From Streptomyces uncialis (GTDB lineage Bacteria > Actinomycetota > Actinomycetes > Streptomycetales > Streptomycetaceae), in assembly GCF_036250755.1 (NCBI RefSeq), contig NZ_CP109583.1:992001-1056000 (forward strand): a stretch of 64,000 nt of DNA. Reading direction: 5' to 3'. Each line of letters starts with the position of its first letter. Positions within the stretch are counted from its first letter, which is position 1. Below the pieces are notes generated by a model. The model was not told where the DNA came from. It searched no databases and saw only the letters and a list, made by a program, of their open reading frames with translations. Positions 1,478-27,700 of this stretch are shown one piece after another. Both the position numbers and the translations under genes were made by a program.

Positions 1478-2911
1478 TCAGACGCCCCAGCGCAGCGCGA
1501 TCGTGTCGCCGACCTGGACGACCCGGTCACGGGTCGCGGCGGCGGGCGCTGAACCGTCGACGCTCACCTTCCATGTCGAAGTGCCGCTGTTGGCCTTGCC
1601 GTTGACGGCCGTGATGGTGCCCGTCGCCCCGCTCGCCGGGGTGACGGACGTGACACAGCCCGCCGGGGTCGCCGCGCCCGTGGCGGCGGTCAGCACCTCG
1701 CCGAGGGTGGTCGTGGTGCCGGTCGGGGTGAACGCCACCGAGCACACCGACAGACCGCCCGCGCCGTCATCGACGGACAGGGCGAGTTCGGTGGCCGTCC
1801 CCGGGGTGAACGCGCTCTGCGCGACCCACTGCGGAGCACCCGCGGTCACCGGCACCGGAGGCGCGGCGGTGAAACCGCCGCCTGCGACGGCGCGGAGCGC
1901 GTCGATCGACGCGTACGCCGACGGAGTGGTGTTGGCGGGCTGGTACTTGAAGCCGCCGCCGGGGTTGAACTGCTGGGCGATCAGGAAGTCGATCGGGGTG
2001 CGGCCGGCCGGGGTGAGGAAGTCACCGGTCTGCGGGTTGATCCCGCAGGCGTTCAGCCCGGAGACGGCCCAGCCGTTGGAGTTGGTGTTGACGCCGTACA
2101 TCGCGTTGAACGCGCCCGACGTGCTGACCAGTTTGCTCTTCAGGAACGCCTTGGCCTGGACGATGTCCGGGTCGGTCGCGGGCACCCCCGCCGAGCAGAG
2201 TGCCGCCATGGAGGCTCCCGTCATATCGATGTCGGACGCCGCGCCGAGCTGCGCGGGGTTGCCCTCGGCCTTGCTGTAGTTCCAGCCGCCGTCGTTGTGC
2301 TGGTTGGCGCGGACCCGGGTGACGATCCGGTCCAGCAGCGCCTGCGGCACGCGCTGCGCGCCGGACTGGGTGCGCGCGCCCGCGAGGGAGAGCCCCGCGA
2401 AGACGGTGCCGTTGTAGTTGGCGGACGGACCGAAGTACCCGGCCTCGGCGGTCTGCCAGTAGCCGTAGATGTCGGCGATGAGGTTGCGGGACGCGGATAT
2501 CCGGGCGGGGTCGATGCCCGCGGCGTACGCGTTGAGCGTGCCGCGTTCGTAGTCGGTGACCACGGGGGTCGCGGACGGCCAGCCGGAGGTGGCGAGCAGA
2601 TCGCGGTACACCTTGCGGGCGTTCTTGGTGGCATCGCCGCCGGGCGTCACATCGACCGCGGCGGTCCCCGCCGCGGCGAACGCGCTGAACGCCCACTCGT
2701 TGGACAGCCCGGAACCGGCGTACGAACCGTCCGCGGCCTGAAGGGACTTGAGGTAGGTGACGCCGTTGGTCTTCGAGGTGGCGATCTGCGCGGGGGTCGA
2801 GGTCGCCGAGGCGGGCGGCGCGGTGAGCGCGGCGACCGCGCCGAAGGTGGCGAGAGCGGCGGGCACCGTGACGGCGAAACGGGCACGGCGGGAGGTACGG
2901 GGTCTGGACAT
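1478..2911 (-). CDS. Secreted alpha-barrel + beta-domain protein, cobalamin-binder-like
   Basis: The 477-residue protein starts at ATG 2911, preceded by AGGAG. It has a Sec signal peptide (residues 1-36, ending PPASA). Residues 40-350 hold prenyltransferase/terpene-cyclase-type alpha/alpha barrel repeats (ANQHNDGGWNYSK at 202-214, SDIDMTGASMAAL at 226-238, QQFNPGGGFKYQ at 313-324). Residues 360-477 form a small beta domain ending STWKVSVDGSAP...VQVGDTIALRW, which resembles DUF4430/intrinsic-factor beta domains. Barrel then beta domain, secreted, is the layout of vertebrate intrinsic factor and transcobalamin. The cyclase DXDD motif is absent, so enzymatic cyclisation is unlikely. A cobalamin riboswitch lies in its leader. 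I infer extracellular corrinoid binding; the domain similarity is by eye and binding is not shown. Confidence 0.75.
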   Translation of the reverse strand: MSRPRTSRRARFAVTVPAALATFGAVAALTAPPASATSTPAQIATSKTNGVTYLKSLQAADGSYAGSGLSNEWAFSAFAAAGTAAVDVTPGGDATKNARKVYRDLLATSGWPSATPVVTDYERGTLNAYAAGIDPARISASRNLIADIYGYWQTAEAGYFGPSANYNGTVFAGLSLAGARTQSGAQRVPQALLDRIVTRVRANQHNDGGWNYSKAEGNPAQLGAASDIDMTGASMAALCSAGVPATDPDIVQAKAFLKSKLVSTSGAFNAMYGVNTNSNGWAVSGLNACGINPQTGDFLTPAGRTPIDFLIAQQFNPGGGFKYQPANTTPSAYASIDALRAVAGGGFTAAPPVPVTAGAPQWVAQSAFTPGTATELALSVDDGAGGLSVCSVAFTPTGTTTTLGEVLTAATGAATPAGCVTSVTPASGATGTITAVNGKANSGTSTWKVSVDGSAPAAATRDRVVQVGDTIALRWGV

Positions 2912-3000
2912 GACCGGCTCCTGGGGGTGGGGGACGCCGGCCCCGCCGCGTCCGGCCGGGTGCGGGCACGCCGGTGGGACGGGTGGCCGCCGTCCCATCG

Positions 3001-3135
3001 CGTGATACGGCTTCCTGATCGGTGCACCACCGTGCGGGCATTCGGGCTCGGGACGGCCCCCTGCCGTCCCACACCGCTGCGCGTCAGCCCCGGACTCCCA
3101 CCGGGTTCCCCCACACGGCGGTCCCGGACGCTACC
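3001..3135 (-). promoter_or_regulatory. Cobalamin riboswitch for the 1478-2911 gene
   Basis: Read on the minus strand, the leader contains the B12-box core: GGAACCCGGTGGGAGTCCGG followed by GGCTGACGCGCAGCGGTG (about 3105-3070), and at about 3020-3009 the distal element GATCAGGAAGCC, which matches the conserved CAGGA-ACC side of the junction. A TAGCGT that could serve as -10 lies at about 3134. The aptamer ends about 90 bases before the ATG, consistent with control of translation or early transcription. Boundaries are approximate. Confidence 0.8.
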
Positions 3136-3207
3136 CGAGGCGGCGGGGGCGCGCCAGCGGTCCCGCCATGGAGGCCGCCGCGGGGAAGGGCCGCGGTCCG
3201 GGTCACC

Positions 3208-3385
3208 TTGACGCTCCGTTCGCAGCCGTGTTCCAATCCGGCTGATACACACTCAAGTTCAGGGGAAGCCGGTCGAACTCCGGCGCTGACCCGCAACCGT
3301 AGGCCCGTCGCACCGCGCACGGGCGAGCCGGACTGCCTGGACTTGGCTCTACGCAGCGAGAGGCGCCGTCGCGGACTACGGCGTG
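3208..3385 (+). promoter_or_regulatory. Promoter and cobalamin riboswitch, copy 1
   Basis: TTGACG at 3208-3213 and TCCAAT at 3232-3237 with an 18-base spacer form a plausible promoter. The aptamer follows: GGGAAGCCGGTCGAACTCCG at 3263-3282, GCGCTGACCCGCAACCGTAG at 3283-3302, and GAGCCGGACTGCC at about 3325. After it comes a 6-bp stem with an 8-nt loop (CGCCGT at 3364-3369, ACGGCG at 3378-3383). Promoter, aptamer and stem are all repeated, nearly base for base, at 20515-20687. The element sits 125 bases before the 1023-residue protein gene and is divergent from the riboswitch at 3001-3135. Confidence 0.88.
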
Positions 3386-3507
3386 GTTCGGAACGGCCTC
3401 CCCGGCGCACGCCGCCCAGGAGGGGAGCCGCCTGCCACGCACTGCTCCACACGCACGGCACGACCGACGACATGACCGGACGGACACGTCCGGCGACGTG
3501 AGGGGCC

Positions 3508-6500
3508 GTGGTGGGGACCGGAGACAGATCCGAACGGCGGGCGCGGCCGGGGAAGTTGCCCGCGTTGCTGACCGCGCTGCTGCTGGCGGTGGGTACGGGC
3601 GTGGCGTTCGTCACGGTGGCGCCCGCCGCCGCCGATCCGGTGGAGGACTGCACGCCGACGCGAGGCGCGGTCGTCGCCGTCGACTTCGCCCCGTTCGGCG
3701 GCGGGGTGGTCCGTGGCTGCGACCTGACCCCGACCACGGGCTACGAACTGCTGCGCGAGGGCGGGTTCACCACCACCGGCACCCAGCACGACGGCCCCGG
3801 GTTCCTGTGCCGGATCGGGCACAGGTCGTACGCGTCGGGCACCGAGTACCCGACACCGGACCGTGAGGACTGCGTGCTCACCCCGCAGGCCACCGCCTAC
3901 TGGTCGTACTGGATCGCCTCACCCGGGCAGAGCCGTTGGCGGTACAGCCCGTTGGGTGCCATGAGCCGTACCCCGAAGGACGGTGACGTGGACGCCTGGG
4001 TGTTCGGCGGCACCGATGTCGGCGGTTCCACCGGACGGCCCTCGTTCACCCCGGACGAGGTCCGCGCGGGCGGCGGTGTCACCCCCGGCCCCTCGGTGAC
4101 ACCGTCAGCGACACCATCGGCGTCCCCCTCCCCGACCGGGCCGTCCGGGTCGGTCGATCTGGACGCCGCCGCCGAGTGGGTGCGCGGCAGGCTCACCGAC
4201 GGTGACCACATCGCCGTCGACGGGAGCGACGCGCCGGACCATATGCTCACCACGGAGGCCGCGTTCGCGCTGGCCGCCGCCGACGGCCCGGGCACCGCGC
4301 TCGACAAGGTCACCGCGTTCATGGCGGGCCGTACCGACGCCTACGCCTATCCGGGCGGCGCCGGCGAGGCACCGGACACCAACGCGGCGGCACGGCTCGC
4401 GCTCCTGGCGTCGGCGACCGGCGGCGACCCCCGTGACATGGGCGGGCACGACCTGGTGGGCGATCTCGCGAAGCACGTCTGCGACAAGGGACCCGACGAC
4501 GGCGCGGGACCCGAATGCACCGCCGTGGGCGACTTCCGCTCCGCCGGGTACGCCGACGGGCAGGCCCTCGCGGTCCTCGCCCTGCTGCGCGCCGGGCTCG
4601 AACCGCCCGCCGCGAGCGTGTCCCGGCTGGCCGCGCTCCAGTGCGAGGACGGCGGCGTGACCAGCGTCCTGATCCGGCCCGGTGAGAACTGCGACGGCGA
4701 TCCCGGGACGACGGGCCTGGTCGCGCTGGTCCTGGACCGGGCGGGCGGCCACACCGGCACCGTCGACCGGGCGAAGCGGTACCTGCTCGGCGCACAACTG
4801 GCGTCCGGCGCGTTCCCCGGGTACACGGGGTCGACGACCGGCACGGCGTGGACCACCGGCTACGCGGCGCAGGCGCTGCGCGCGCTGGGCGAGACCGGTC
4901 CGGCCGACGCGGCCGTGGGCTGGCTCGGCACCCAGCAGTTGCCGGACGGCGGCTTCGCCTTCGAGGAGGGCGGTACGGACGCCGCCGTGTACGCCACGTC
5001 CCCCGCGGTTCTCGCGGGCGCCGGAACGAGTCTGCTGACCCTCACCCGTGAGGCACCGCAGCCGACCGGCACGCCGACGGGCCCCACACCCCCCACAAGT
5101 CCCCCGCCGTCGCCCACCGGACCGTCGTCCCCCACCCCGACCGGCCCCTCACCCACACCTCCGACGAGCCCGCCCCCGTCGCCCACGGGTCCGTCACCCA
5201 CGGGTCCGACGACGACACCGCCGCCCAGGCCGCCCGGTACGACCCCCGATCTGCGCAAGGGCGTCGCGTATCTCACCGGCCGGGCGAACCTCGTGGGCGG
5301 CCGCTACTACGAGTCGGCCGGCGGCGGTGGCCGGGCGGACTTCGGGCTCACCATCGACGGTGCGTACGCCCTGGCCGCGACCGGTCTCGACAACGACGCG
5401 CTGCGCGGGGTCGTGGACTTCCTCGACACCGGCGAGGACGTCACCGGGCGCGCGGTGCACGACTGGACCGGGGTCGGCCGCGGCGCTGTGGTGGGCGGCG
5501 CGCTCGGCAAGACCGCGCTGCTGGCCGTGGCCGTGGGACGGGACCCGAGGGACTTCGGCGGCCAGGACCTGGTCGCGGCGCTGAAGGACGCGGTGTGCAA
5601 GGCACCGAGCACGGCACCGGACCGTTCGTGCGCGGCCAAGGGCGCCTACACCTACGCCCAGTCGGTGTTCTCGCAGTCCCTCGGTGTGATCGCGCAGATC
5701 AGGGCCGGGGACGAGGAAGCGGCCCGGGAGCCGCTCGGGTATCTGCGGGGCCTCCAGCGGGACTCGGGCGCCTGGCCGAGCCTGATCCCCGCGACCGGCG
5801 ACGCGGACGTGGACTCCACCGCGATGGCCGCGATGGCGGTGGACACCGCGGACGGCGGCGACCCGGATCGCGTCGTCTCCAGGGCGCTGGCCTGGATCGC
5901 GGACCAGCAGCTCCCGGACGGGGGTTTCCCCGGGGCGGCCGGGAACTCGGTCAACTCGGCGGCGCTCGCCGTACAGGGGCTGTCACTGGCTCCCGCGACC
6001 TACGAGGCCGAGATCACCAAGGCTCTCAAGTTCCTGGCGTCGCAGCAGAACCGGGACGGCGGATTCAACGTCGCCAAGGGCGGTCAGCCCGGTTCCGATC
6101 TGCGGGCCTCGACGCAGGCGGTCGGCGGGGCGACCGGGACGCCCTTCGGGGAGCTGACCCGGGATCTCACCGACACGTCCCCGCAGCCCACCCGGCCCGG
6201 TCCCGGACCCACGTCGTCACCCGGACCGGACCCCTCGCCCTCCACCCCGGGGATCGTCACCCCGGGCGACCCGGGCGGAGCCACCGGCTCCGGCGGAGCG
6301 AACGGCGCGAACGGGAACGGCGGTTCAGGCGGTTCGGGGAACGCGGCCGGGTCCACCGGCGCGACGGGCTCCGGCGGCTCCGGCTCCGGTACGGGCGGTG
6401 GTTCGGGAACCGACGGCGGCACGGGCGCCCATGGGGCGGCCGGGGACGGCGGGGCGCTCGCGAGCACCGGCGCCCAGGTGGGGCTGTTCGCCCTGCTCGC

Positions 6501-6579
6501 CACCGGACTCGTCCTCGCGGGATGGCGGACCGTCGTCGTGGCCAGGCGCCGCACGGCGGCGGACGGAGGAACACGATGA
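3508..6579 (+). CDS. Cell-wall-anchored beta-domain/double-barrel protein, putative cobalamin binder
   Basis: This 1023-residue surface protein starts at GTG 3508 (a second GTG follows directly). Layout: signal peptide 1-42; Cys-containing beta domain 48-170 (C48, C71, C101, C122; AYWSYWIASPG at 130-140; WVFGGTD at 164-170); Pro/Ser/Thr linker 190-215; alpha/alpha barrel one, 216-512; a TP/PSP-rich linker 515-580; barrel two, 581-885, with QQLPDGGFPG and QQNRDGGFNV repeats; a Gly/Ser-rich spacer 900-980; LASTG at 984-988; a transmembrane helix; and RRR. LAxTG is the recognised sortase E motif class in Streptomyces, so covalent anchoring to peptidoglycan is expected. The cobalamin riboswitch upstream and the intrinsic-factor-like domains suggest B12 capture at the cell surface. 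That role is inference. Its stop overlaps the next start (ATGA). Confidence 0.8.
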   Translation: MVGTGDRSERRARPGKLPALLTALLLAVGTGVAFVTVAPAAADPVEDCTPTRGAVVAVDFAPFGGGVVRGCDLTPTTGYELLREGGFTTTGTQHDGPGFLCRIGHRSYASGTEYPTPDREDCVLTPQATAYWSYWIASPGQSRWRYSPLGAMSRTPKDGDVDAWVFGGTDVGGSTGRPSFTPDEVRAGGGVTPGPSVTPSATPSASPSPTGPSGSVDLDAAAEWVRGRLTDGDHIAVDGSDAPDHMLTTEAAFALAAADGPGTALDKVTAFMAGRTDAYAYPGGAGEAPDTNAAARLALLASATGGDPRDMGGHDLVGDLAKHVCDKGPDDGAGPECTAVGDFRSAGYADGQALAVLALLRAGLEPPAASVSRLAALQCEDGGVTSVLIRPGENCDGDPGTTGLVALVLDRAGGHTGTVDRAKRYLLGAQLASGAFPGYTGSTTGTAWTTGYAAQALRALGETGPADAAVGWLGTQQLPDGGFAFEEGGTDAAVYATSPAVLAGAGTSLLTLTREAPQPTGTPTGPTPPTSPPPSPTGPSSPTPTGPSPTPPTSPPPSPTGPSPTGPTTTPPPRPPGTTPDLRKGVAYLTGRANLVGGRYYESAGGGGRADFGLTIDGAYALAATGLDNDALRGVVDFLDTGEDVTGRAVHDWTGVGRGAVVGGALGKTALLAVAVGRDPRDFGGQDLVAALKDAVCKAPSTAPDRSCAAKGAYTYAQSVFSQSLGVIAQIRAGDEEAAREPLGYLRGLQRDSGAWPSLIPATGDADVDSTAMAAMAVDTADGGDPDRVVSRALAWIADQQLPDGGFPGAAGNSVNSAALAVQGLSLAPATYEAEITKALKFLASQQNRDGGFNVAKGGQPGSDLRASTQAVGGATGTPFGELTRDLTDTSPQPTRPGPGPTSSPGPDPSPSTPGIVTPGDPGGATGSGGANGANGNGGSGGSGNAAGSTGATGSGGSGSGTGGGSGTDGGTGAHGAAGDGGALASTGAQVGLFALLATGLVLAGWRTVVVARRRTAADGGTR

Positions 6580-7775
6580 ACGGCTGGACGACACGGCGTA
6601 CCGGGCCGGCGGGACCGAGGGCGGCGGGGGTGCCCGCTCCGACCGGGGCCCGCCGGACGGTACGGGCACTGGCCCGGCTGGGGGGCGCGCTGGCCCTGAC
6701 GGTCACCGCCCATACGGTCGGCGCCGGTCAGGCGACGGCCGCGCCGAAGCCGATCGGCCACTGCACGACCTCCCAAGGGGTCGTCCTCGCCGTCGACTTC
6801 AGCGACTGGGGCGGTCCGGTGTACCGCTCGTGCGGGACCACCCCGACCACGGGGTACGAGCTGCTGAACCAGGGCGGCTGGCGGACCACCGGTACGGGTC
6901 ATGACGGTCCCGCGTTCATCTGCCGGATCGGGTACAGCGGTCACCAGAGCGGCAAGCAGTTCCCGCCGCCCCGGCAGGAGGACTGCGTCCTCACCCCGCC
7001 CGCCTCCGCGTACTGGTCGTACTGGCACGCGGACCCCGGGGAGAACACCTGGGAGTACAGCCAGCTCGGCGCGATGAGCTACCGGCCGAAGCCGGGCAGT
7101 GTCGATCTGTGGATCTTCGGCGGCACCGACATCGAGGGCACGCGGGGCCGCCCGACGATCTCCCCCGACCAGCTACGCGCCCACAACGTCCGTCCCACGG
7201 GCAGCAGTTCGGGCGGCGGCTCGGGAAGCTCCTCCGGCGGCGGTTCGGGAGGCGGTTCCGGTGGCTCGGGCGGCTCCCGTGGCGGTTCCGGCTCCAGCGG
7301 CGGTTCGGTGGGGAGTCCGGGCGGCGGCTCCGGTGGGGGCGCGCCCGCGCCGGAGCGGACCGGCGGCGGAACGTCCGGCGCCCGGAACGGCGGACAGCCG
7401 ACCGCGCGGGACGACGGGCCAGGGCAGCCGCGGCGTACGGACGGTACGGAGCGCGGGCGGGAGGCGCAGCCGCGGCCGTCGCGGACCACGAAGCCGCCGA
7501 AGTCCCCCCGGTCGGGGTCCCCGTCGGCCGGCCGTCCGGCGAAGCCGAGCCCTACGGCGAGCCCGACCGTGGGCGGCTCACCATCCGCGACCGGTTCGAG
7601 CGGTTCGGCCGGCGCTGTGGCCGCCCCGGCGACCAGCAACGAGGTCGTCGACGCGCCGATCGCCAAGGCCGCCCGGCACGACAACGGATCGGTGCTTCCG
7701 GTGGTCGTGACCGTGGTCCTGGTCGTACTGATCGGCGCGGCGGCGATCATCGCGAAACGGCGCCGCGCCGGATAG
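6576..7775 (+). CDS. Membrane-anchored beta-domain protein, putative cobalamin binder
   Basis: The 399-residue product starts at ATG 6576 inside the previous stop codon (ATGA), with GGAGG 8 bases upstream, so the two are translationally coupled. A signal peptide ends near residue 56. Residues 61-185 form a beta domain clearly paralogous to that of the upstream protein: the same four Cys (63, 86, 116, 137), TTGYELLNQGGWRTTGTGHD against TTGYELLREGGFTTTGTQHD, AYWSYWHADPGENTWEYSQL, and LWIFGGTD. A Gly/Ser-rich spacer (200-260) and a Pro/Arg/Ser-rich stretch lead to one transmembrane helix (about 372-392) and a basic RRR tail. No barrel and no LAxTG are present, so it is held by its membrane helix. 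It may pass ligand from the wall protein toward the membrane transporter; this is inference. Confidence 0.78.
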   Translation: MNGWTTRRTGPAGPRAAGVPAPTGARRTVRALARLGGALALTVTAHTVGAGQATAAPKPIGHCTTSQGVVLAVDFSDWGGPVYRSCGTTPTTGYELLNQGGWRTTGTGHDGPAFICRIGYSGHQSGKQFPPPRQEDCVLTPPASAYWSYWHADPGENTWEYSQLGAMSYRPKPGSVDLWIFGGTDIEGTRGRPTISPDQLRAHNVRPTGSSSGGGSGSSSGGGSGGGSGGSGGSRGGSGSSGGSVGSPGGGSGGGAPAPERTGGGTSGARNGGQPTARDDGPGQPRRTDGTERGREAQPRPSRTTKPPKSPRSGSPSAGRPAKPSPTASPTVGGSPSATGSSGSAGAVAAPATSNEVVDAPIAKAARHDNGSVLPVVVTVVLVVLIGAAAIIAKRRRAG

Positions 7776-7854: not shown

Positions 7855-7926
7855 GTCGGGTGGTCAGCCGTGGTCGGGCGGTCAGCCGTGGTCGGGTGGT
7901 CAGTCGTGGTCGGGTGGTCAGTCGTG
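7855..7926. repeat. Four 18-bp direct repeats
   Basis: Four consecutive copies of GTCGGGTGGTCAGCCGTG with one or two substitutions lie between convergent genes. The last copy overlaps the final codons of the ferric-reductase-like gene. There are no spacers, so it is not a CRISPR array. It may be simple slippage, possibly shaping the 3' end of both transcripts. Confidence 0.85.
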
Positions 7927-8997
7927 GTCGGTGTGGCTGGACGTGGTGTCGGCGGGGGGTTCTGCACGGCCTCCGTCGCGGCCGGTGATCAGTACGGCCA
8001 GCAGTACGCCGAGGACGGCGACCGCGGCGATCCGTACGGTCAGCCGCAGTGTCCAGACGGTACGGGACCCGGCGGCGCGGGCCGCGGCGAGGCGCTCCGA
8101 GCGCCGGGCGGGGCTCAGCATCCGGATCAGGAACAGCGCGGCGATGGGGAGTTGGAGCAGCCAGACGGTGGTGCGGAACCAGCCGTCGTACCAGACGTTG
8201 GTGCCGTACAGCAGGGTGTGCCAGACGCTCAGCACATAGATGACGAGGATGCACCGGTGCAGGACGCGCCAGGTCTTCGGGCCGACGCGGTGGCGGACGT
8301 AGAAGAGCAGCCCGAGCGGGATCGCGAGATAGAGGGCGGCCTGGCCGACGGGGATGGCCACGGCGCCGGTACCGGAGTCGTAGCCGCCGGGGACGAAGGT
8401 CTCCACGAAGGCCGTCCAGGTGCGGCCGTACCAGCTGTCGGTGTCGTGCCGGATCAGCTCGGCGGCGAAGAACAGCGCGTGGGCGGCGATCAGGGCGATC
8501 GTGTTGAGGCTGGTGGTGCGGTGCAGCCGTTCGAGACGGGGACCGGTGAGCGGCAGCCATCGGGGCCGGGGTCCGGACATGAGGAGTCCGAGCACGACGG
8601 TGCCCCAGGCCCACAGCAGCGCGGACCAGCCGAACGCCTGGCTGACGAAGTACAGCCAGAAGGCGCCCGCGTCGGCCATGAACGGCATGACGGTGAGGGT
8701 GGACGAGGTCTTCGCCCTGATCCGGAGGTAGATGACGACGAAGACCACGGCGGTGATGGCGAGGGCGACCAGCCCGTCGTAGAGGCTCGCGCGCAGGTCG
8801 GAGCGGAGGGTGATCCGGGGCGGCCCGGTACGGCGCGGGGCGGTTCCCGGACCGCCGGGTCCGCCCGGGGCGGACACGGCGCCCGGGGCGGAGGAGGGCT
8901 GGGCGGGCGACGGGACCGTGGGGGGCGGTCCTGTCCGGGTGCCGGGGCCTGGGGTGGGTTCCTGGCCTGGCACGGCGGGGTCGGTGGGGGGCTGCAT
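7918..8997 (-). CDS. Ferric-reductase-like transmembrane protein
   Basis: The predicted product has 359 residues from ATG 8997. A GTG at 9105 in the same frame would add 36 residues; neither start has a strong ribosome site. A Pro-rich N-terminus of about 75 residues precedes six or more hydrophobic helices (ALAITAVVFVVIYLRIR, TIALIAAHALFFAAELI, ALYLAIPLGLLFYV, CILVIYVLSVWHTLLYG). His residues in helices (ERLHRTT, AAHALF, VLHRC, VWHTLL) fit the b-type heme ligands of ferric reductase-like/YedZ-type membrane domains. There is no FAD or NAD domain, so it would need a partner. It is convergent with the surface-protein operon. A role in reducing a metal or corrinoid at the membrane is possible but unproven. 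Confidence 0.75.
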   Translation of the reverse strand: MQPPTDPAVPGQEPTPGPGTRTGPPPTVPSPAQPSSAPGAVSAPGGPGGPGTAPRRTGPPRITLRSDLRASLYDGLVALAITAVVFVVIYLRIRAKTSSTLTVMPFMADAGAFWLYFVSQAFGWSALLWAWGTVVLGLLMSGPRPRWLPLTGPRLERLHRTTSLNTIALIAAHALFFAAELIRHDTDSWYGRTWTAFVETFVPGGYDSGTGAVAIPVGQAALYLAIPLGLLFYVRHRVGPKTWRVLHRCILVIYVLSVWHTLLYGTNVWYDGWFRTTVWLLQLPIAALFLIRMLSPARRSERLAAARAAGSRTVWTLRLTVRIAAVAVLGVLLAVLITGRDGGRAEPPADTTSSHTDHD

Positions 8998-9277
8998 GGC
9001 GGGCGGCTCCGCTGCGTTCGGGTGGGACCCCCGCCGGGGGGCGGGGCATGACCTGAAGGTCGTCGGACGGGGGGCCCGGACGGTTCCCGGCACCCCGAGT
9101 GACACGAGTCACACCACTTTGCGTAGCGATGTGTCACCGGTACCGGGAGCCTCTTCCCGGCGGCCCCCTGGGGGCGGAACGGACCATCCGTGGCGGGACG
9201 ACCCCCTCGCGGGCAGGACAGCCCTCGCGGAGGATCATGGCACCCGGACCATCGACACCCTCGGCAGGGAAGTGACC

Positions 9278-20381: not shown

Positions 20382-20514
20382 CCCTCCCGGCCGGAGACGC
20401 GCGGAGGGCCGCTCCGAGGCGGGCCGATGCCTACCGCGTCGCGCCGGGCGGAGCGTGACGTGAGCGGTACCGACCGTCCTCGGCGACCGCCGCACGGCAG
20501 CGAGCCGGGTCACC

Positions 20515-20687
20515 TTGACGCTGTCTTCGTCCGCGTGTTCCAATCCGGCTGATAAGCAGTCAACTTCAGGGAAAGCCGGTCGAAGTCCGGCGCTGACCCG
20601 CAACCGTAGGCCCGGCGGCAGCCGGGTGAGCCGGAATGCCTGAGGTGGCAGATTCCAGCGAGAAGCGCCGTCGCGGACTACGGCGTG
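20515..20687 (+). promoter_or_regulatory. Promoter and cobalamin riboswitch, copy 2
   Basis: TTGACG (20515-20520), an 18-base spacer and TCCAAT (20539-20544) repeat the promoter of copy 1. The aptamer core AGGGAAAGCCGGTCGAAGTC (20568-20587), GCGCTGACCCGCAACCGTAG (20590-20609) and GAGCCGGAATGCC (20629-20641) match the cobalamin consensus better than copy 1. The stem CGCCGT/ACGGCG (20666-20671, 20680-20685) is identical to copy 1. A leader of about 300 bases follows before the ECF transporter genes; I see no gene in it. Confidence 0.9.
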
Positions 20688-20985: not shown

Positions 20986-22200
20986 ATGACCTCACCCTCC
21001 GGCCCCGCACCCGACGCACGTACCCCCGGTGCCCGAAAGCCCGCCGCTCGTAGGCTCGTTGGGGAACCGGACCCGGGCGGGCGCCGGTTGCCCCGTACCC
21101 TGCACCCGGTGGCCTGGTGGATCTGGGCCCTCGCGCTCGCCACCGCCGTCAGCCGCACCAACAATCCGCTGCTGCTGTTCCTCGTACTCGCGGTGCTCGG
21201 GTACGTGATCACCGCGCGGCGCACCGAGGCGCCGTGGGCCCGCGGCTTCAAGTACTACCTCTACCTCGCGCTGATCGTCGTCGCGATCAGGGTGGTGTTC
21301 CGCGCGGTGTTCGCGACCGGCATCACGCCCGACGACCACTTCCTGTTCTCCCTGCCCCGCATCCCGACCCCCGACTGGTACGCCGGGATCGAGATCGGCG
21401 GCCCCGTCTCCCTGGAAGCGCTGCTGTCCGCCGCCACCGACGGACTGCGCATCGCCTGCATGCTGTGCTGCATCGGCGCGGCCAACACCCTCGCCAACCC
21501 CAAACGCGCGCTGCGCGTGCTGCCCGGGGCCCTGTACGAACTCGGGGTCGCCGTCACCGTGTCGCTCAGTGTCGCCCCGCAGCTCGTGCAGAGCGTGCAG
21601 CGTGTGCACCGGGCCAAACGGTTGCGCGCGGGCCGCGCCAAGGGCCTGGGCGCGCTGCGCGGCATCGTCGTCCCGGTGCTGGAGGACGCGCTGGAACGCT
21701 CGCTGCGGCTGGCCGCGGCGATGGATTCCCGCGGCTACGGCCGGGCCGGTACGGCCACCCGGGCGTCCCGGCGGATCACCGGAGGGCTGATGCTGGCGGG
21801 TATGTGCGGTCTGTGCGCCGGTGCGTACGGGCTGCTCGACGCGACCGCGCCCCGGGTGCTCGGGCTGCCCGCGATGGCGGCGGGGGCGCTGCTGTGCGTC
21901 GCCGGTCTGCGGACGGGCGGGCGGCGGGTCACCCGGACGACCTACCGTCCGGACCCGTGGCGGTTCGCGGAGTGGGCGGTGGCCGGGTGCGGTGTGCTGT
22001 CGGCCGTCGTCCTGTTCGGCGGCGCCGGGTTCGACGCCGCCGCGCTGAACCCGTCGATCTATCCGCTGAGCTGGCCCACGCTGCCGCTCGTCCCGGCGGC
22101 CGCGATCCTGCTCGCGGGGGCCGCCGGATTCCTGTCGCCGCCGCCGAGGGCACCCGTTCCGCCGTCCGTCCCGTCCCCGCGCAGCGAGGCAGTCACGTGA
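20986..22200 (+). CDS. ECF transporter T component (CbiQ/EcfT-like)
   Basis: The 404-residue membrane protein starts at ATG 20986. A charged, Pro-rich N-terminus of about 45 residues precedes helices starting at WWIWALALATAVSR, NPLLLFLVLAVLGYVI and YYLYLALIVVAIRVVF. The two Ala-Arg-type coupling-helix motifs expected of EcfT are visible in RAKRLRAGRAKGL and LAAAMDSRGYGR (about 212-255), which dock on the ATPases. A C-terminal pair of helices extends beyond the usual CbiQ length of about 270. It is first in a three-gene operon with fused ATPases and an S component, behind a cobalamin riboswitch, so the transported substrate is most likely cobalamin or a corrinoid. Confidence 0.9.
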   Translation: MTSPSGPAPDARTPGARKPAARRLVGEPDPGGRRLPRTLHPVAWWIWALALATAVSRTNNPLLLFLVLAVLGYVITARRTEAPWARGFKYYLYLALIVVAIRVVFRAVFATGITPDDHFLFSLPRIPTPDWYAGIEIGGPVSLEALLSAATDGLRIACMLCCIGAANTLANPKRALRVLPGALYELGVAVTVSLSVAPQLVQSVQRVHRAKRLRAGRAKGLGALRGIVVPVLEDALERSLRLAAAMDSRGYGRAGTATRASRRITGGLMLAGMCGLCAGAYGLLDATAPRVLGLPAMAAGALLCVAGLRTGGRRVTRTTYRPDPWRFAEWAVAGCGVLSAVVLFGGAGFDAAALNPSIYPLSWPTLPLVPAAAILLAGAAGFLSPPPRAPVPPSVPSPRSEAVT

Positions 22201-23846
22201 TCACCTTCGACGAGGTCAGTGTCCATTACGAGGACATGGCGGAGCCCGTGCTGCGCGATGTCGGTCTGACGGTGGACGAGGGTGAGCTGTGTCTGGTCGT
22301 CGGGCACACCGGGGTCGGCAAGTCGACGCTGCTCGGCGCCGTCAACGGCCTGGTGCCGCACTTCACCGGCGGCACCCTGTACGGGCGGGTCACGGTCGAC
22401 GGCCGTGACACCGCGGACCATCCGCCGCGTGAACTCGCCGATGTGGTGGGCGTGGTGGGCCAGGACCCGCTGGACGGTTTCGTGACCGACACCGTCGAGG
22501 AGGAACTGGCCTACGCGATGGAGCAGTTGGCCGTACCGCCCGCCACCATGCGCAAGCGCGTGGAGGAGACCCTGGATCTGCTGGGGCTGGCCGATCTGCG
22601 GCATCGCGCCCTGTACGAGCTCTCGGGCGGCCAGCAGCAGCGCGTCGCCATCGGTTCCGTCCTCACCGCGCATCCCCGTGTCCTCGTCCTGGACGAACCC
22701 ACCTCGGCGCTGGACCCGTCGGCGGCGGAGGAGGTGCTTTCGGCGGTCACCCGGCTCGTGCATGACCTCGGGGTGACCGTGCTGATCGCGGAGCACCGTC
22801 TCGAACGCGTCATCCAGTACGCGGACCGGGTCATCCATCTCCCGGGCGGGGGCCGGGTGGTGGCCGGGCGGCCCGACGAGGTGTTCCGTACGTCGTCCAT
22901 CGCGCCGCCGATCGTGGAGCTGGGGCGGACCGCCGGGTGGGATCCGCTGCCGCTGTCCATCCGGGACGCCCGCCGCAAGGCCGCTCCGCTGCGGACCCGG
23001 CTCGCCGACGCTCCCCCGCCGCCCGCCCGGCCGGGCGTCCCGGCCGTGGGCCCGCCGCTGCTGACGGCGCGCGGTATCACCGTGAGCTACGACCGGGTAC
23101 CCGCCGTCCGGGAGGTCGGCCTCGAACTCCACGGCGGCCGGGTCACCGCCCTGATGGGCCGCAACGGTTCCGGGAAGTCCTCCCTGCTGTGGGCGCTCCA
23201 GGGTTCCGGGCCACGGTCGGGCGGGACGGTACGGGTCACGGCGGCCGACGGCGGGAAGGGGGGCGATCCCCGCGATCTGTCCCCGGCCGACGCGCGCCGG
23301 CTGGTGGGGCTGGTTCCGCAGACGCCGACCGATCTGCTGTATCTGGAGAGCGTCGAGCAGGAACTCGCCCAGGCCGACCGGGAGTCCTTCACCCTGGGGA
23401 AGGATGTCCACGCGCGGGCCGTCCTCGACCGGCTCGCCCCGGGGATCGACGGCGCCACCCATCCGAGGGATCTGTCCGAGGGGCAGAAGCTGGCCCTGGT
23501 CCTGGCGATCCAGCTCACCGCGGCCCCCCGGGTGGTGCTGCTGGACGAGCCGACGCGCGGACTCGACTACCGGGCCAAGACCGAGCTGATCCGTGTCGTC
23601 GACGCTCTCGCGGCCGAGGGGCGGGCAGTGGTGATCTCCACGCACGACGTGGAGTTCGTCGCCCGCGCCGCCGACCGGGTCGTGGTGATGGCCGAGGGCG
23701 ACATCGTGGCGGACGGTCCGACCGCCGATGTCATCGTGGCCTCGCCCGTCTTCGCCCCGCAGGTCGCGAAGATCCTCGCGCCGCTCCCCTATCTCACGGT
23801 CGCGCAGGTGGCCGCGGCCCTCCCCGACGACGAGGCGGACTCATGA
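22197..23846 (+). CDS. ECF transporter fused A1-A2 ATPase
   Basis: A 549-residue double ATPase starts at GTG 22197, overlapping the T-component stop (GTGA). Domain one: Walker A GHTGVGKSTLL (36-46), signature LSGGQQQRVAIG, Walker B VLVLDEPTSALD, H-loop IAEHRLER. Domain two, from about residue 282: Walker A GRNGSGKSSLL, signature LSEGQKLALVLA (Glu for Gly in the motif, common in EcfA proteins), Walker B VVLLDEPTRGLD, H-loop STHDVEF. Fusion of both ATPases in one chain is usual for actinobacterial ECF systems. It powers uptake by the T and S components encoded on either side. Confidence 0.95.
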   Translation: MITFDEVSVHYEDMAEPVLRDVGLTVDEGELCLVVGHTGVGKSTLLGAVNGLVPHFTGGTLYGRVTVDGRDTADHPPRELADVVGVVGQDPLDGFVTDTVEEELAYAMEQLAVPPATMRKRVEETLDLLGLADLRHRALYELSGGQQQRVAIGSVLTAHPRVLVLDEPTSALDPSAAEEVLSAVTRLVHDLGVTVLIAEHRLERVIQYADRVIHLPGGGRVVAGRPDEVFRTSSIAPPIVELGRTAGWDPLPLSIRDARRKAAPLRTRLADAPPPPARPGVPAVGPPLLTARGITVSYDRVPAVREVGLELHGGRVTALMGRNGSGKSSLLWALQGSGPRSGGTVRVTAADGGKGGDPRDLSPADARRLVGLVPQTPTDLLYLESVEQELAQADRESFTLGKDVHARAVLDRLAPGIDGATHPRDLSEGQKLALVLAIQLTAAPRVVLLDEPTRGLDYRAKTELIRVVDALAAEGRAVVISTHDVEFVARAADRVVVMAEGDIVADGPTADVIVASPVFAPQVAKILAPLPYLTVAQVAAALPDDEADS

Positions 23847-24685
23847 CGCTGCCCGCCCGCACGACGGCGATCCGTATCGGCCCGCGCGCCGCGGTCGTCG
23901 TCGCCATGGCGGCCTTCCTCGGGGTGGTCGCCTTCTTCTGGCCGTTCCTCGTCGCCCCCGGCAGGTTCGCCTCGCACTACGCGCCGCCGCTGATCTTCGG
24001 GGTGCTGCTCGTCCTCGTGCTGTGCGTGGTGATCTCGGAGATCGCCGAGGGCGGGATCAGTTCCAAGGCCCTCGCCATGCTCGGGGTGCTCTCCGCGGTC
24101 AACGCGGCGCTGCGTCCGCTCGGCGCGGGGACCGCGGGCGTCGAGACCGTGTTCTTCGTGCTCGTCCTGGCGGGGCGCGTGTTCGGTCCCGGGTTCGGCT
24201 TCACCCTGGGCTGCACCTCGCTGTTCGCGTCGGCCCTGATCACCGGGGGTGTCGGTCCGTGGATGCCATACCAGATGTTCGGCTGCGCGTTCGTGGGGAT
24301 GCTCGCCGGGTTCCTTCCCCGGGCCACCGGCCGCCGGGAGGTGCTGCTGCTCGCCGGGTACGGTTCGCTGTCCGGCTATCTCTTCGGGTTCCTGCTGAAT
24401 CTGTCGTTCTGGCCGTTCTCCCTGGACCCGGGCAGCTCGATCGCCTATCTTCCCGGGCTGCCCTTCACCGAGCAGTGGCAGCGTTACATCGCCTTCGACA
24501 TCGCCACGTCCCTGGGCTGGGACACCGGCCGCGCGGTCACCAACTTCGTGTGCGTCGTCCTCGCGGGACCCGCCGTGCTGACCGTCTTCCGGCGGGCCGC
24601 GCGCAAGGCCCGTTTCCAGGCCCCGGTCCGCTTCGCCGCCCGCCACGGCGACGGGGACGCCGGGCCACCGTCCCTGACGAAGTAG
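23843..24685 (+). CDS. ECF transporter S component, probable cobalamin (CbrT-like)
   Basis: The 280-residue protein starts at ATG 23843 within the stop of the ATPase gene (ATGA). It has about six hydrophobic helices (AVVVAMAAFLGVVAFFWPFLV, PPLIFGVLLVLVLCVVI, VETVFFVLVLAGRVFGP, QMFGCAFVGMLAGFLP, LLLAGYGSLSGYLFGFLLNL, FVCVVLAGPAVLTVF) and the FGP/SALITGG-type loops of ECF substrate-binding subunits. The riboswitch and the nearby metE and surface-protein loci argue for vitamin B12 as ligand. It is the only uptake route for B12 visible here; no BtuCDF set is present. Confidence 0.85.
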   Translation: MTLPARTTAIRIGPRAAVVVAMAAFLGVVAFFWPFLVAPGRFASHYAPPLIFGVLLVLVLCVVISEIAEGGISSKALAMLGVLSAVNAALRPLGAGTAGVETVFFVLVLAGRVFGPGFGFTLGCTSLFASALITGGVGPWMPYQMFGCAFVGMLAGFLPRATGRREVLLLAGYGSLSGYLFGFLLNLSFWPFSLDPGSSIAYLPGLPFTEQWQRYIAFDIATSLGWDTGRAVTNFVCVVLAGPAVLTVFRRAARKARFQAPVRFAARHGDGDAGPPSLTK

Positions 24686-24732: not shown

Positions 24733-27057
24733 TCAGGCGTCCCCGGCCGTCAGACCTGAGCGGACCTCACGGGCGGCGGTGACCAGGTTCTCCAGCGAGG
24801 CGCGGGTCTCGGGCCAGCCGCGGGTCTTCAGCCCGCAGTCGGGGTTGACCCAGAGCCGTTCGGCCGGGATGGCCTCAAGTCCCTTGCGCAGCAGACCGGC
24901 CGCCTCCTCGGCGCTGGGCACGCGCGGGGAGTGGATGTCGTAGACGCCGGGTCCCGCCTCGCGCGGGTAGCCGTGCTCGGCGAGTTCGGTGGCGACCTGC
25001 ATATGGGAGCGGGCGGCCTCCAGACTGATGACGTCGGCGTCGAGATCGTCGATGGCCTGGACGATGTCGCCGAACTCGGCGTAGCACATATGGGTGTGGA
25101 TCTGGGTGTCCGGACGTACGCCGCTGGTGGTGAGACGGAACGACTCGGTGGCCCATTCGAGGTAGCCGGCGTGGTCGGCGGCGCGCAGCGGGAGGGTCTC
25201 GCGCAGCGCGGGTTCGTCCACCTGGATGACGGAGGTCCCGGCGGCTTCCAGGTCGTCGACCTCGTCGCGCAGGGCGAGGGCGACCTGGCGGGCGGTGTCA
25301 CCGAGGGGCTGGTCGTCGCGGACGAAGGACCAGGCGAGCATGGTGACCGGCCCGGTGAGCATGCCCTTGACGGGCCGTTCGGTGAGCGACTGGGCGTACG
25401 AGGTCCAGCGGACGGTCATCGGCTCGGGGCGGGAGATGTCCCCGGCGAGGACGGGCGGCCGGACGTAGCGGGTGCCGTACGACTGGACCCAGCCGTGCTG
25501 GGTGGCCAGGTAGCCGGTGAGCTGTTCGGCGAAGTACTGCACCATGTCGTTGCGTTCGGGTTCGCCGTGGACGAGGACGTCGATGCCCGCCTTCTCCTGG
25601 AAGGCGAGGACGTCGCGGATCTCGTCCTTGATGCGCTCCTCGTACCCGGCGGTGTCGATACGCCCGGCGCGCAGATCGGCGCGGGCGGCGCGCAGTTCGT
25701 CCGTCTGGGGGAACGATCCGATGGTGGTGGTCGGCAGCAGGGGCAGCCGCAGGTGCGCGCGCTGGGCGACGGTCCGTTCGGCGTAGGGCTGGGAGCGGCG
25801 TCCGTCGGCGTCGGTGACGGCGGCGGTACGGGCGCGTACGGCGGGGTCGTGGGTGAGCGCGGACCCGGCGCGGGACGCCAGGTCGGCGCGGTTGGAGGCG
25901 AGTTCGGCGGTGATCGCCTCGGTGCCCTGGGCCAGTCCCTTGGCGAGGGTGACGATCTCGGTGGTCTTCTGCTGGGCGAAGGCGAGCCAGCGGGCGATCT
26001 GCGGGTCGATGTCGCGTTCGGCGTCGGCGTCGAGCGGGACGTGCAGCAGCGAGCAGGAGGCGGCCACGTCGACCCGGTCGGCGAGGCCGAGCAGGGTGCC
26101 GAGGGTGGCGAGCGACTTCTCGTAGTCGTTGATCCAGATGTTGCGGCCGTTGACCACGCCCGCGACCAGTCGCTTGCCGCGCAGTCCGCCGACGGCGGCG
26201 AGGTCCTCCAGATTGCCCGCGGCGCGCTCGGTGAAGTCGAGGGCGAGGCCGTCGACGGGTGCCTTCGCCAGGACGGGCAGGGCCTCGCCCAGCCGGTCGA
26301 AGTAGGAGGCGACGAGCAGCTTGGGCCGGTCGGTGAGCGCGCCGAGGTCACGGTAGGCGCGGGCGGCGGAGTTCAGTTCGGCGGGGGTGCGGTCCTGGGC
26401 GAGGGCGGGTTCGTCGAGCTGTACCCATCCGGCTCCGGCGGCCCGCAGATCGCCGAGGATCTCGGCGTAGACGGGGAGCAGCCGGTCCAGCAGGGTCAGC
26501 GGCTCGAAGTCGGCGGGCACCCCGGGGGCGGGCTTGGCCAGCAGGAGGTAGGTGACCGGGCCGACGAGGACCGGCCGGGGGTCGAGACCGAGTGCGAGGG
26601 CTTCCTTCAGCTCGGCGACCTGCTTGGCGGGGTCGGCGCCGAAGACGGTGTCGGGGCCGAGTTCGGGGACCAGGTAGTGGTAGTTGGTGTCGAACCACTT
26701 GGTCATCTCCAGCGGCGCGACGTCCTGGGTGCCGCGTGCCATGGCGAAGTAGCCGTCGAGCGTGTCGGCGGCGACGGCCGCGCGGTGCCGGGCGGGGACG
26801 GCGCCGACCATGACACTGGTGTCCAGCATGTGGTCGTAGTACGAGAAGTCGCCGGTGGGCACCTCGTGGATGCCGGCGTCGGCCAGTCGGCGCCAGTTGG
26901 TCCGGCGCAGACCGGCGGCGGTCTCCCGGAGGGCGTCGGCGGTGACGCGGCCCTTCCAGTAGCCCTCGACGGCCTTCTTCAGTTCCCGGTTCGGTCCCTG
27001 GCGGGGGTAGCCGTACACGGTGGCCTGTGCTGCCGCGGCTGCGGACTTCGGTGTCAC
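24733..27057 (-). CDS. metE: Cobalamin-independent methionine synthase
   Basis: The 774-residue enzyme transfers a methyl group from 5-methyltetrahydropteroyl-triglutamate to homocysteine without B12. The start is GTG 27057, behind AAGGAGAG. The N-terminal barrel begins ATVYGYPRQGPNRELKKAVEGYWKG. The C-terminal catalytic barrel begins near residue 430 (PLLPTTTIGSFPQT) and holds the zinc ligands His and Cys in IHTHMCYAEFGD, Glu in DVISLEAARS and Cys in NPDCGLKTRGW. Length and motifs are normal, so it should be active. Its leader carries a cobalamin riboswitch, the classical arrangement in which MetE is made only when B12 is scarce and MetH cannot work. Confidence 0.97.
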   Translation of the reverse strand: MTPKSAAAAAQATVYGYPRQGPNRELKKAVEGYWKGRVTADALRETAAGLRRTNWRRLADAGIHEVPTGDFSYYDHMLDTSVMVGAVPARHRAAVAADTLDGYFAMARGTQDVAPLEMTKWFDTNYHYLVPELGPDTVFGADPAKQVAELKEALALGLDPRPVLVGPVTYLLLAKPAPGVPADFEPLTLLDRLLPVYAEILGDLRAAGAGWVQLDEPALAQDRTPAELNSAARAYRDLGALTDRPKLLVASYFDRLGEALPVLAKAPVDGLALDFTERAAGNLEDLAAVGGLRGKRLVAGVVNGRNIWINDYEKSLATLGTLLGLADRVDVAASCSLLHVPLDADAERDIDPQIARWLAFAQQKTTEIVTLAKGLAQGTEAITAELASNRADLASRAGSALTHDPAVRARTAAVTDADGRRSQPYAERTVAQRAHLRLPLLPTTTIGSFPQTDELRAARADLRAGRIDTAGYEERIKDEIRDVLAFQEKAGIDVLVHGEPERNDMVQYFAEQLTGYLATQHGWVQSYGTRYVRPPVLAGDISRPEPMTVRWTSYAQSLTERPVKGMLTGPVTMLAWSFVRDDQPLGDTARQVALALRDEVDDLEAAGTSVIQVDEPALRETLPLRAADHAGYLEWATESFRLTTSGVRPDTQIHTHMCYAEFGDIVQAIDDLDADVISLEAARSHMQVATELAEHGYPREAGPGVYDIHSPRVPSAEEAAGLLRKGLEAIPAERLWVNPDCGLKTRGWPETRASLENLVTAAREVRSGLTAGDA

Positions 27058-27181
27058 GGAACTCTCCTTCGCGAGATGTCTCCTGAACATCCCGGCGACG
27101 GGGCGGGAGCGCGAAGGGGGTGACAGACCGGACGGAACCCGTGCCCGCGCGCGAGGCGCGGCCGTCCGCCGGTATGTGCCG

Positions 27182-27258
27182 CCCGGACGATTGTCCGGGG
27201 TTCCTCCGACCCGCCCACGAGGTCACCGGGATCGCCGCGCACGAGGGGTCGTGCGCGG
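27182..27258 (-). terminator. Expression-platform hairpins of the metE riboswitch
   Basis: Just downstream of the aptamer on the minus strand there is a perfect 10-bp stem with a 4-nt loop (27235-27258, CCGCGCACGA arms), then a 7-bp stem (27182-27199, CCCGGAC/GTCCGGG). The first is strong enough to act as a terminator or anti-RBS element, though there is no U-run. Confidence 0.55.
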
Positions 27259-27460
27259 ACAGCGGGCAGGTCTTCGGACTCGCGGGCACGTACGCCGGTC
27301 TCCCGGCGGACTCCTACTGGCCGTCGCTTCCCAGACCCGGCCGGGCCCAGTGCGTATGACGGCGGTCGTTCCCGCTCACCGCTGCGGGGCAGTCCCGGAT
27401 TCCCACCGGGTTCCCTCTTGCGACGCCTCTGTCTGGCGGACAGGGCGAACCAGCTGCACC
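27258..27460 (-). promoter_or_regulatory. Cobalamin riboswitch of metE
   Basis: On the minus strand the core GGGAACCCGGTGGGAATCCG (27416-27397), GGGACTGCCCCGCAGCGGTGA (about 27398-27378), GCACTGGGCC, TCTGGGAAGCGACGGCCAG and the distal AGTCCGAAGACCTGCC (27283-27268) make a full-length canonical aptamer, longer than the two plus-strand copies. A TAGGCT at about 27465-27470 could be the -10. Confidence 0.92.
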
Positions 27461-27700
27461 GGCCAGCCTAGAGGGGTCGCCCCGCTTCGGACAGTGGTGT
27501 TCACATACCGGACCGTGACATGAGACACGGAGGGAGCAGGGTTGACGCCGTCCGGCACCGACGGGGCACGCCTTCCCGTGGACGTCCGAGCGGGTACGGG
27601 GACCTGGGCGGATACGACGTGTCCGGGCGGGTAGGGCATCGTGGGACCGGTCCGCGCGTCTGCGGGCCCCCGTCAGATCCTGGAAGGAACGGAAGAGATC

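Follow-up and report, generated by a model that had tools for sequence, protein, structure and literature searches.

A Streptomyces locus with a transcobalamin-like secreted protein, anchored surface proteins and an ECF transporter under cobalamin riboswitches: probable capture and import of corrinoids

The Isd haem relay supplies a membrane importer from receptors anchored in the wall, to which some species add free carriers, and BtuG, the B12-capturing surface lipoprotein of Bacteroides, belongs to a Gram-negative outer membrane and has an unrelated fold. The Streptomyces locus presented here differs from the Isd/ECF haem system in its probable ligand, its folds and its regulator. In outline it is similar to this relay combined with the ECF haem importer described for Staphylococcus lugdunensis (PMC7299338), and it would share with the Bacteroides lipoprotein, as described in PMC6143338, the capture of B12 at the surface ahead of a transporter. 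Among the closest known systems are those of Burroughs et al. 2007 (PMC1796856), who predicted transcobalamin-like SLBB proteins encoded with CbiO/CbiQ operons and proposed that they scavenge B12. The common ground with the systems described there is an SLBB domain that is secreted or displayed at the surface and adjoins an alpha/alpha toroid on either side, a Gram-positive anchor motif in several of the proteins, paralogous extracellular members in one operon, and a CbiO-like ATPase together with a CbiQ-like membrane protein. The first-pass annotation had named the locus as a candidate for an undescribed system, which is not supported: scavengers of this type had already been predicted for low-GC Gram-positives.

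The Burroughs clade was placed in low-GC Gram-positives, planctomycetes and less often euryarchaea, whereas the locus described here is from high-GC actinomycetes; the main text of PMC1796856 contains neither "Streptomyces" nor "riboswitch". Compared with the systems as that paper describes them, the Streptomyces locus has riboswitch control, free and anchored proteins side by side, an extra SCO2322-type domain and a wall protein with two barrels. We found no test of the bacterial B12 catchers predicted in 2007 in the literature, and Gram-positive B12 capture beyond the membrane appears to be largely untested.

The window, i.e. the whole stretch of 64,000 nucleotides of Streptomyces uncialis DNA that was analysed, contains the features listed in Table 1. 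The gene positions annotated earlier were correct. We collected 68 loci via P0003, so that the neighbourhood counts speak for P0003-bearing genomes only, and P0003 orthologs were present in 65 of them. The order of the six genes is constant: in all 48 loci that contain all six they form a single array with P0003 divergent from P0001-P0002-CbiQ-ABC-S. In two loci (L072 and L090) the frames are broken, and two others (L095 and L096) gave weak matches only. In S. uncialis the array is split, with the ECF genes approximately 13 kb away from the surface genes, and each piece has its own copy of the riboswitch leader (82% identity between the ECF leader and the P0001 leader over 199 alignment columns). 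The presence of a leader copy at both separated pieces suggests that co-regulation of the surface and ECF genes is under selection. A link to the distant ECF genes had been proposed from the paralogous riboswitch; it is supported and is stronger than could be seen from the window, because the genes adjoin each other in the relatives.

Table 1. Positions of genes, protein domains and riboswitches in the window
Feature	Position	Strand	Remarks
P0003	1478..2911	minus	open frame 1478-2998 = 506 aa; ATG at 2911 gives 477 aa
P0003, C-terminal DUF4430-like beta domain	~1478-1846	minus	structure model
P0003, alpha/alpha barrel	~1868-2803	minus	structure model
Cobalamin riboswitch, short form, 5' of P0003	3037..3110	minus	RF00174 31.3 bits (gathering score 31.5)
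Cobalamin riboswitch, short form, 5' of P0001-P0002	3203..3327	plus	RF00174 23.8 bits (gathering score 31.5)
P0001	3508..6579	plus	wall-anchored surface protein (predicted)
P0001, SCO2322-type beta domain	~3640-4032	plus	
P0001, barrel 1	~4147-5070	plus	well modelled; followed by Pro-rich linker
P0001, barrel 2	~5218-6141	plus	well modelled
P0001, LASTG sortase sorting motif	6457..6471	plus	read from translation; followed by hydrophobic segment and Arg residues
P0002	6576..7775	plus	surface protein with membrane tail (predicted)
Third, paralogous cobalamin riboswitch leader, 5' of ECF genes	20510..20661	plus	RF00174 27.5 bits (gathering score 31.5)
P0006, CbiQ-like ECF transmembrane (T) component	20986..22200	plus	PF02361, 1.1e-11
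P0005, double ECF ATPase, two ABC domains	22197..23846	plus	
P0004, ECF substrate-binding (S) component	23843..24685	plus	PF12822 31.9 bits (cut-off 30.7)

A scan of the window with Rfam at the gathering score reported the metE riboswitch alone. Judged from the sequences of the relatives, the two divergent cobalamin riboswitches are genuine although neither copy in the window reaches the Rfam cut-off. A B12-box motif, allowing two mismatches at most, was directed at both P0003 and P0001 in all 63 loci that have both genes, and the riboswitch core pattern was found 5' of 63 of the 64 P0001 copies and 55 of the 65 P0003 copies, while the reversed sequences used as control gave no match. Five further sequences were searched with RF00174 at the gathering score; four loci passed with one position each (32.4-37.4 bits), two on the P0003 side (L030, L065) and two on the P0001 side (L075, L081), and in L009 this search found no element. 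In the P0001 leader (alignment A1, 31 loci and two window leaders) 7 of 22 pairs were changed on both sides, which was matched by none of 500 shuffles; in the P0003 leader (alignment A2, 31 loci and one window leader) it was 9 of 23 pairs, matched by one of 500 shuffles. The structures pair in 98% (P0001 leader) and 97% (P0003 leader) of the cells, compared to 51% and 55% for the best slid structures; the scoring favours them, since they were derived from the same alignments. Both alignments thus contain a conserved core and pairing that is kept through two-sided changes, as in RF00174. A chance riboswitch-like sequence was rejected on the basis of the B12-box in 63 of 63 loci, the shuffle and slide controls and the reversed sequences.

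Other riboswitches of the genome are located 5' of metE, cobN, nrdA, cobQ and a CbtA-like gene, i.e. genes for B12 or cobalt. CbtA is a proposed cobalt transporter; the gene behind the riboswitch scores below the cut-off for this family.

The genes behind the third leader encode a T component, two ATPase domains and an S component, the composition of an ECF vitamin transporter. A comparison of P0004 with the PDB by sequence yielded no informative relative that would point to its substrate. The T component is of the CbiQ type and the riboswitches of this genome also precede cobN, cobQ and the low-scoring CbtA-like gene; this would fit uptake of cobalt or of a B12 precursor (cobinamide, dimethylbenzimidazole) in place of complete B12, with the surface proteins binding that ligand. 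However, P0004 matches PF12822, a family of ECF proteins for organic substrates, no CbiM-type match was among those listed for it, and a metal ion would hardly need a transcobalamin-like carrier. We regard uptake of cobalt or a precursor as unlikely overall, although a precursor may be the ligand.

The predicted carrier is P0003. It has a signal segment (read from the sequence by eye), and the structure model places a barrel and then a beta domain in one secreted chain, the order of animal transcobalamin and intrinsic factor. This order had been claimed before and is supported by the structure model. In a Foldseek comparison of the full-length model with the PDB the top 14 chains were 12 transcobalamins, one intrinsic factor and one haptocorrin, with alignments that span both domains. 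The structure comparison thus ranked the B12 carriers first to fourteenth, but the TM-scores were low, the barrel taken alone was not diagnostic, and the rmsd across both domains was approximately 19, which we read as a different orientation of the modelled domains. A profile search of the PDB with E values of up to 10 allowed did not list any transcobalamin. Since a recognisable sequence relationship is lacking, we call P0003 built like transcobalamin, and not a member of its family; a shared architecture with transcobalamin and intrinsic factor is supported by the model. In the model, helix 367-377 is followed by short strands, which might correspond to the beta-hairpin inserted after the helix in the SLBB transcobalamin-like clade. 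The beta domain stays below the DUF4430 cut-off (PF14478, 23.8 bits) with 18.0 and 18.4 bits, and 21.5 in the genome search; a DUF4430 match at E up to 0.01 was found in 6 of 33 orthologs. The alignment of P0003 (A3, 33 of 65 copies after a diversity filter, with L072 dropped and the window sequence replacing L029) contains a single invariant histidine, which might be a cobalt ligand.

P0003 had been described as a surface protein. This was not confirmed: neither LAxTG nor a hydrophobic tail, as membrane or wall anchor, was found in any of the 65 relatives, and P0003 is thus probably a free secreted protein. A free protein with its own riboswitch and its own transcription unit could also sequester B12 from neighbours during shortage, outside the import route, and in one locus (L076) P0003 and a relative of a small secreted protein are present and the other genes are absent nearby. 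On the other hand, P0003 is divergent from P0001 over a short gap in 63 loci, and expression in a starved cell would fit acquisition better, so that we consider sequestration improbable compared to a role of P0003 in uptake. The gene of the small protein, which consists of DUF4430 only, is located immediately outside the left end of the window and is preceded by a weak match to a riboswitch. The protein passes the PF14478 cut-off of 23.8 bits with 33.5 and 35.6 bits, and LAxTG or a hydrophobic tail was found in none of its 26 relatives.

P0001 and P0002 carry signals for attachment to the cell. P0001 has a signal segment (read by eye) and ends with LAxTG, a hydrophobic stretch and a positive tail, the arrangement of a sortase anchor. 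LAxTG is present in 57 of 64 relatives; the other seven are four short copies (463-854 residues) and three proteins with MASTG or MPVTG. Two class E sortases score above the cut-off in the genome. P0002 consists of a SCO2322-type beta domain, a linker rich in Gly, Ser and Pro and a C-terminal hydrophobic segment, the latter found in 54 of 58 relatives; its judgeable matches in the PDB fall into the linker. A separate search of a viral fold library gave no match at E up to 0.001. The description of P0001 as a beta domain with two barrels stood for the barrels, both of which are well modelled, but the model of the beta domain is of low confidence, with a strand order resembling DUF4430/SLBB. The beta domains of P0001 and P0002 are one family of the SCO2322 type. 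One recognisable family of beta domains across all three proteins was rejected: with the shallow profiles available, none of the four hhalign comparisons with DUF4430 proteins reached a probability of 2%.

The barrels might also belong to secreted enzymes that are merely co-regulated by B12, either terpene-cyclase-like or acting on sugars (the toroid fold of GH76 mannanases and epimerases). The D.DD motif of class II terpene cyclases was absent from all 65 P0003 relatives and from the barrels of all 64 P0001 relatives, as noted before for the window; the single D.DD among the P0001 relatives is located in the N-terminal beta domain. Alignment A4 of P0001 comprises 34 of 64 copies after a diversity filter, with the long L074 and L079 dropped. 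Secretion and wall anchoring would be unusual for a cyclase of membrane lipids, the genes are constantly linked to riboswitches and to an ECF transporter of the vitamin type, and the B12 carriers rank first by E-value for full-length P0003. Terpene cyclase function was rejected on the basis of the absence of D.DD from the barrels and of the genomic context, and enzymes of either kind are very improbable. The barrels contain the stretches DVDST and DIDMT.

Taken together, the locus probably serves the riboswitch-controlled capture and import of corrinoids, i.e. vitamin B12 or close relatives. This reading is based on the riboswitches at both units, the fixed ECF linkage, the carrier-like P0003, the anchoring signals, the riboswitch and CbiQ at the SCO2321-type loci described below, and the position of the other riboswitches of the genome. 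Genes, riboswitches, linkage, predicted architecture and anchoring signals were computed; the ligand, its binding, the direction in which the riboswitches respond, and the hand-over with its order are what we infer. During a shortage of cobalamin inside the cell, the riboswitches would permit expression, and P0003 would be released and could bind a corrinoid in the space between the barrel and the beta domain. P0001, which a class E sortase would attach to the wall, and the membrane-tethered P0002 may then take over the ligand and pass it to the ECF importer with P0004 as S component, P0006 as T component and P0005 as double ATPase; the small DUF4430 protein next to the locus might be an accessory binder. 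More tentatively, P0003 could be the bacterial equivalent of intrinsic factor: made under B12 shortage, this free "cobalophore" would collect corrinoids at a distance from the cell and bring them back to P0001 as a dedicated wall receptor with two barrels, from which they would reach P0002 and the ECF importer. If this is true, the locus would encode a complete relay of proteins that carries B12 across the thick Gram-positive wall. That intrinsic factor and transcobalamin of animals descend from surface proteins of bacteria is a proposal founded on the sequence prediction of 2007 (PMC1796856). Riboswitch control provides a link between carrier-like proteins and cobalamin that does not depend on sequence similarity, and the hosts are soil bacteria in which deletion and binding tests are routine.

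Such a relay would elaborate a simpler anchored operon that is present in almost all Streptomyces sampled, and would hint at what the SCO2321 and SCO2322 families do. This operon is the paralogous SCO2321-SCO2322 operon (NCBIfam NF053823, NF040672); the SCO2321 family was found in 95 of 101 Streptomyces genomes. In the genome analysed here the operon resembles the locus: the SCO2321-family gene (G000:C1:6664075) is located behind a riboswitch and is followed 3' by genes for a SCO2322-family protein and relatives of CbiQ, ABC and the S component. Among the 12 best-scoring SCO2321-type loci, which are not a random sample, 11 had cobalamin-type riboswitch matches and all 12 had a CbiQ relative. 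With approximately 405 residues the SCO2321 protein probably has a single barrel and, unlike P0001, no N-terminal beta domain; P0001 itself is well under the NF053823 cut-off (134.9 versus 300).

The first-pass annotation had described three secreted-protein genes behind two divergent cobalamin riboswitches, and this observation was confirmed: P0003 (barrel-then-beta protein built like transcobalamin), P0001 (two-barrel surface protein) and P0002 (membrane-tailed surface protein) are open frames at the positions and on the strands assigned to them, and the riboswitches are conserved in relatives (see table). The window comes from Streptomyces uncialis or a very close strain, the minus-strand product matching part of NZ_LFBV01000002.1 with 100% identity over 506 residues. 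The functional reading, capture and import of B12, is likely.

Features of the locus and related features of the same genome (G000). Positions are those of the window (G000:C1:992001-1056000) unless a contig or locus is named; L009 and L011 are named loci of this genome.
Feature	Position	Strand	Remarks
P0003	1478-2911	minus	open frame
RF00174 (cobalamin riboswitch)	3037-3110	minus	31.3 bits, gathering score 31.5; permissive scan of 2700-3700
RF00174	3203-3327	plus	23.8 bits, gathering score 31.5; permissive scan of 2700-3700
P0001	3508-6579	plus	open frame
P0002	6576-7775	plus	open frame
CbiQ-like ECF gene	20986-22200		
Double ATPase gene of the ECF set	22197-23846		
S component gene of the ECF set	23843-24685		
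metE, cobalamin-independent methionine synthase	24733-27090	minus	NCBIfam, above cut-off
Cobalamin riboswitch	27248-27469	minus	83.2 bits; before metE
Small secreted protein, 169 residues	L009 14773-15282 (G000:C1)		outside the window, some 0.7-1.2 kb to its left
SCO2321-family protein	G000:C1:6664075-6665319		operon L011 8854-14890

A default Rfam scan of the window found only the element before metE; the two matches at P0003/P0001 come from the permissive scan. Of five sequences scanned, four contain an element above the gathering score, always at a single position: in two of them it lies on the P0003 side and in the other two on the P0001 side. A B12-box motif with at most two mismatches points toward both genes in all 63 loci that contain both, and the cobalamin core is retained across the aligned leaders. 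Two-sided changes that leave the pairing intact were found in 7 of 22 pairs in the P0001-side alignment of 33 sequences and in 9 of 23 pairs in the P0003-side alignment of 32 sequences; shuffled alignments gave means of 3.4 and 5.1 such pairs, and the observed counts were reached by 0/500 and 1/500 shuffles, respectively. Sliding the structures lowered the share of paired cells from 98.3% and 96.9% to no more than 51% and 55%. These shuffle and slide controls are not strict, since the aligned sequences share ancestry and the same alignments also supplied the structures. A riboswitch-core pattern, run over the 1.33 Mb of the 68 named loci with P0003, lies upstream of P0001 in 63/64 copies, of P0003 in 55/65 and of the small-protein gene in 17/26, with 12 matches elsewhere and none on the reversed sequence.

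The products appear to differ in location. P0001 relatives carry LAxTG at the C-terminal end (57/64) and a hydrophobic tail (58/64), and two class E sortases of this genome score above cut-off; 54 of the 58 P0002 relatives also have such a tail. Neither the motif nor the tail was found in 65 relatives of P0003 or in 26 of the small protein. From this set of free, wall-bound and membrane-bound proteins in front of a single importer we infer a relay that would pass a B12-type ligand to the transporter; the order of its steps is likewise inferred. In L074, L075 and L079, the P0001 relatives have about 1,225 residues, around 200 more than the window copy.

At the thresholds applied, 48 of the 68 loci contain all six genes, and in every one P0003 is divergent from P0001-P0002-CbiQ-ABC-S in identical order. 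S. uncialis is an exception, with about 13 kb of other genes between P0002 and CbiQ and a riboswitch leader at each of the two split pieces. These two leaders share 82% identity over 199 alignment columns. The gene next to P0002, where the ECF genes are absent from their usual place, encodes a ferric-reductase-like membrane protein (7918-9105, minus strand). In L072 (Streptomyces niveus), ECF pieces adjoin P0003 with broken frames and no clear P0001 or P0002, reflecting loss or poor sequence. Five Kitasatospora-like loci (L077, L083, L086, L088, L094; at about 7-14 kb within each) have an extra weak P0001 relative beside P0003 with its own riboswitch-like pattern.

The small protein is of the DUF4430-only type, its match to that domain passing the Pfam cut-off, and its gene is preceded by a riboswitch-like element (28.9 bits, below the Rfam cut-off). 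In six of the nine loci where it lacks its own leader (6/26 overall; L045, L046, L054, L056, L063, L067), it lies directly 3' of the S-component gene. A riboswitch-like pattern occurs just beyond the small-protein gene in L046 (1399), L054 (1226) and L056 (1298, minus strand), followed in L056 by a weak P0001 relative (29 bits).

Further riboswitches of this genome lie upstream of metE, cobN and nrdA, and before cobQ, which is followed by a cobaltochelatase-type gene. A weak one (L014 8127-8218, 26.9 bits) precedes a CbtA-like gene (40 bits against a cut-off of 183), a proposed cobalt transporter. Another lies before the gene of an ABC substrate-binding protein; this protein matches a putative F420-0 binder best (183 bits) and BtuF weakly (48 bits), in both cases below cut-off. 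Given these riboswitch-preceded genes, S. uncialis probably makes B12 and may also salvage it.

The first-pass annotation had put the system forward as a candidate for an undescribed one, but its kind was already predicted by Burroughs et al. 2007 (PMC1796856), who described in bacteria a transcobalamin-like SLBB clade with fusions to alpha/alpha toroids and anchor motifs, and operons with paralogous extracellular members and CbiO/CbiQ neighbours. Their proposal was that these proteins scavenge B12 and that the gene was transferred to animals. The main text of that paper contains no match for Streptomyces or riboswitch. In the titles and abstract openings of open-access papers, which are weak evidence of absence, we found no test of a bacterial transcobalamin-like protein and no report tying SCO2321-SCO2325 to B12 uptake; the single paper found to mention SCO2321 concerns a skin-delivery peptide. 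As far as we found, the new elements are a high-GC form that is controlled by riboswitches, the mixture of free and anchored proteins in one locus, the SCO2322-type (small beta) domain within it and the tie to an operon present in most Streptomyces sampled.

In that simpler, paralogous operon of S. uncialis, a gene of the SCO2321 (barrel-protein) family, for which NCBIfam gives no function name, lies behind a riboswitch (35.8 bits). Downstream of it come a SCO2322-family gene and genes related to those for the CbiQ, ABC and S components. Among the 12 best-scoring SCO2321-type loci, all have a CbiQ relative and 11 a cobalamin-type riboswitch match (E <=0.05; four above the gathering score), the one without being L104. 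SCO2321-family proteins scored above cut-off in 95 of the 101 genomes of the genus sample; P0003 was found in 12 of the 101, own genome counted (11 strong), while a family sample, likewise of 101 genomes, gave 12 (10 strong). A phylum sample of 198 genomes yielded SCO2322-type domains in 32, nine of them above cut-off.
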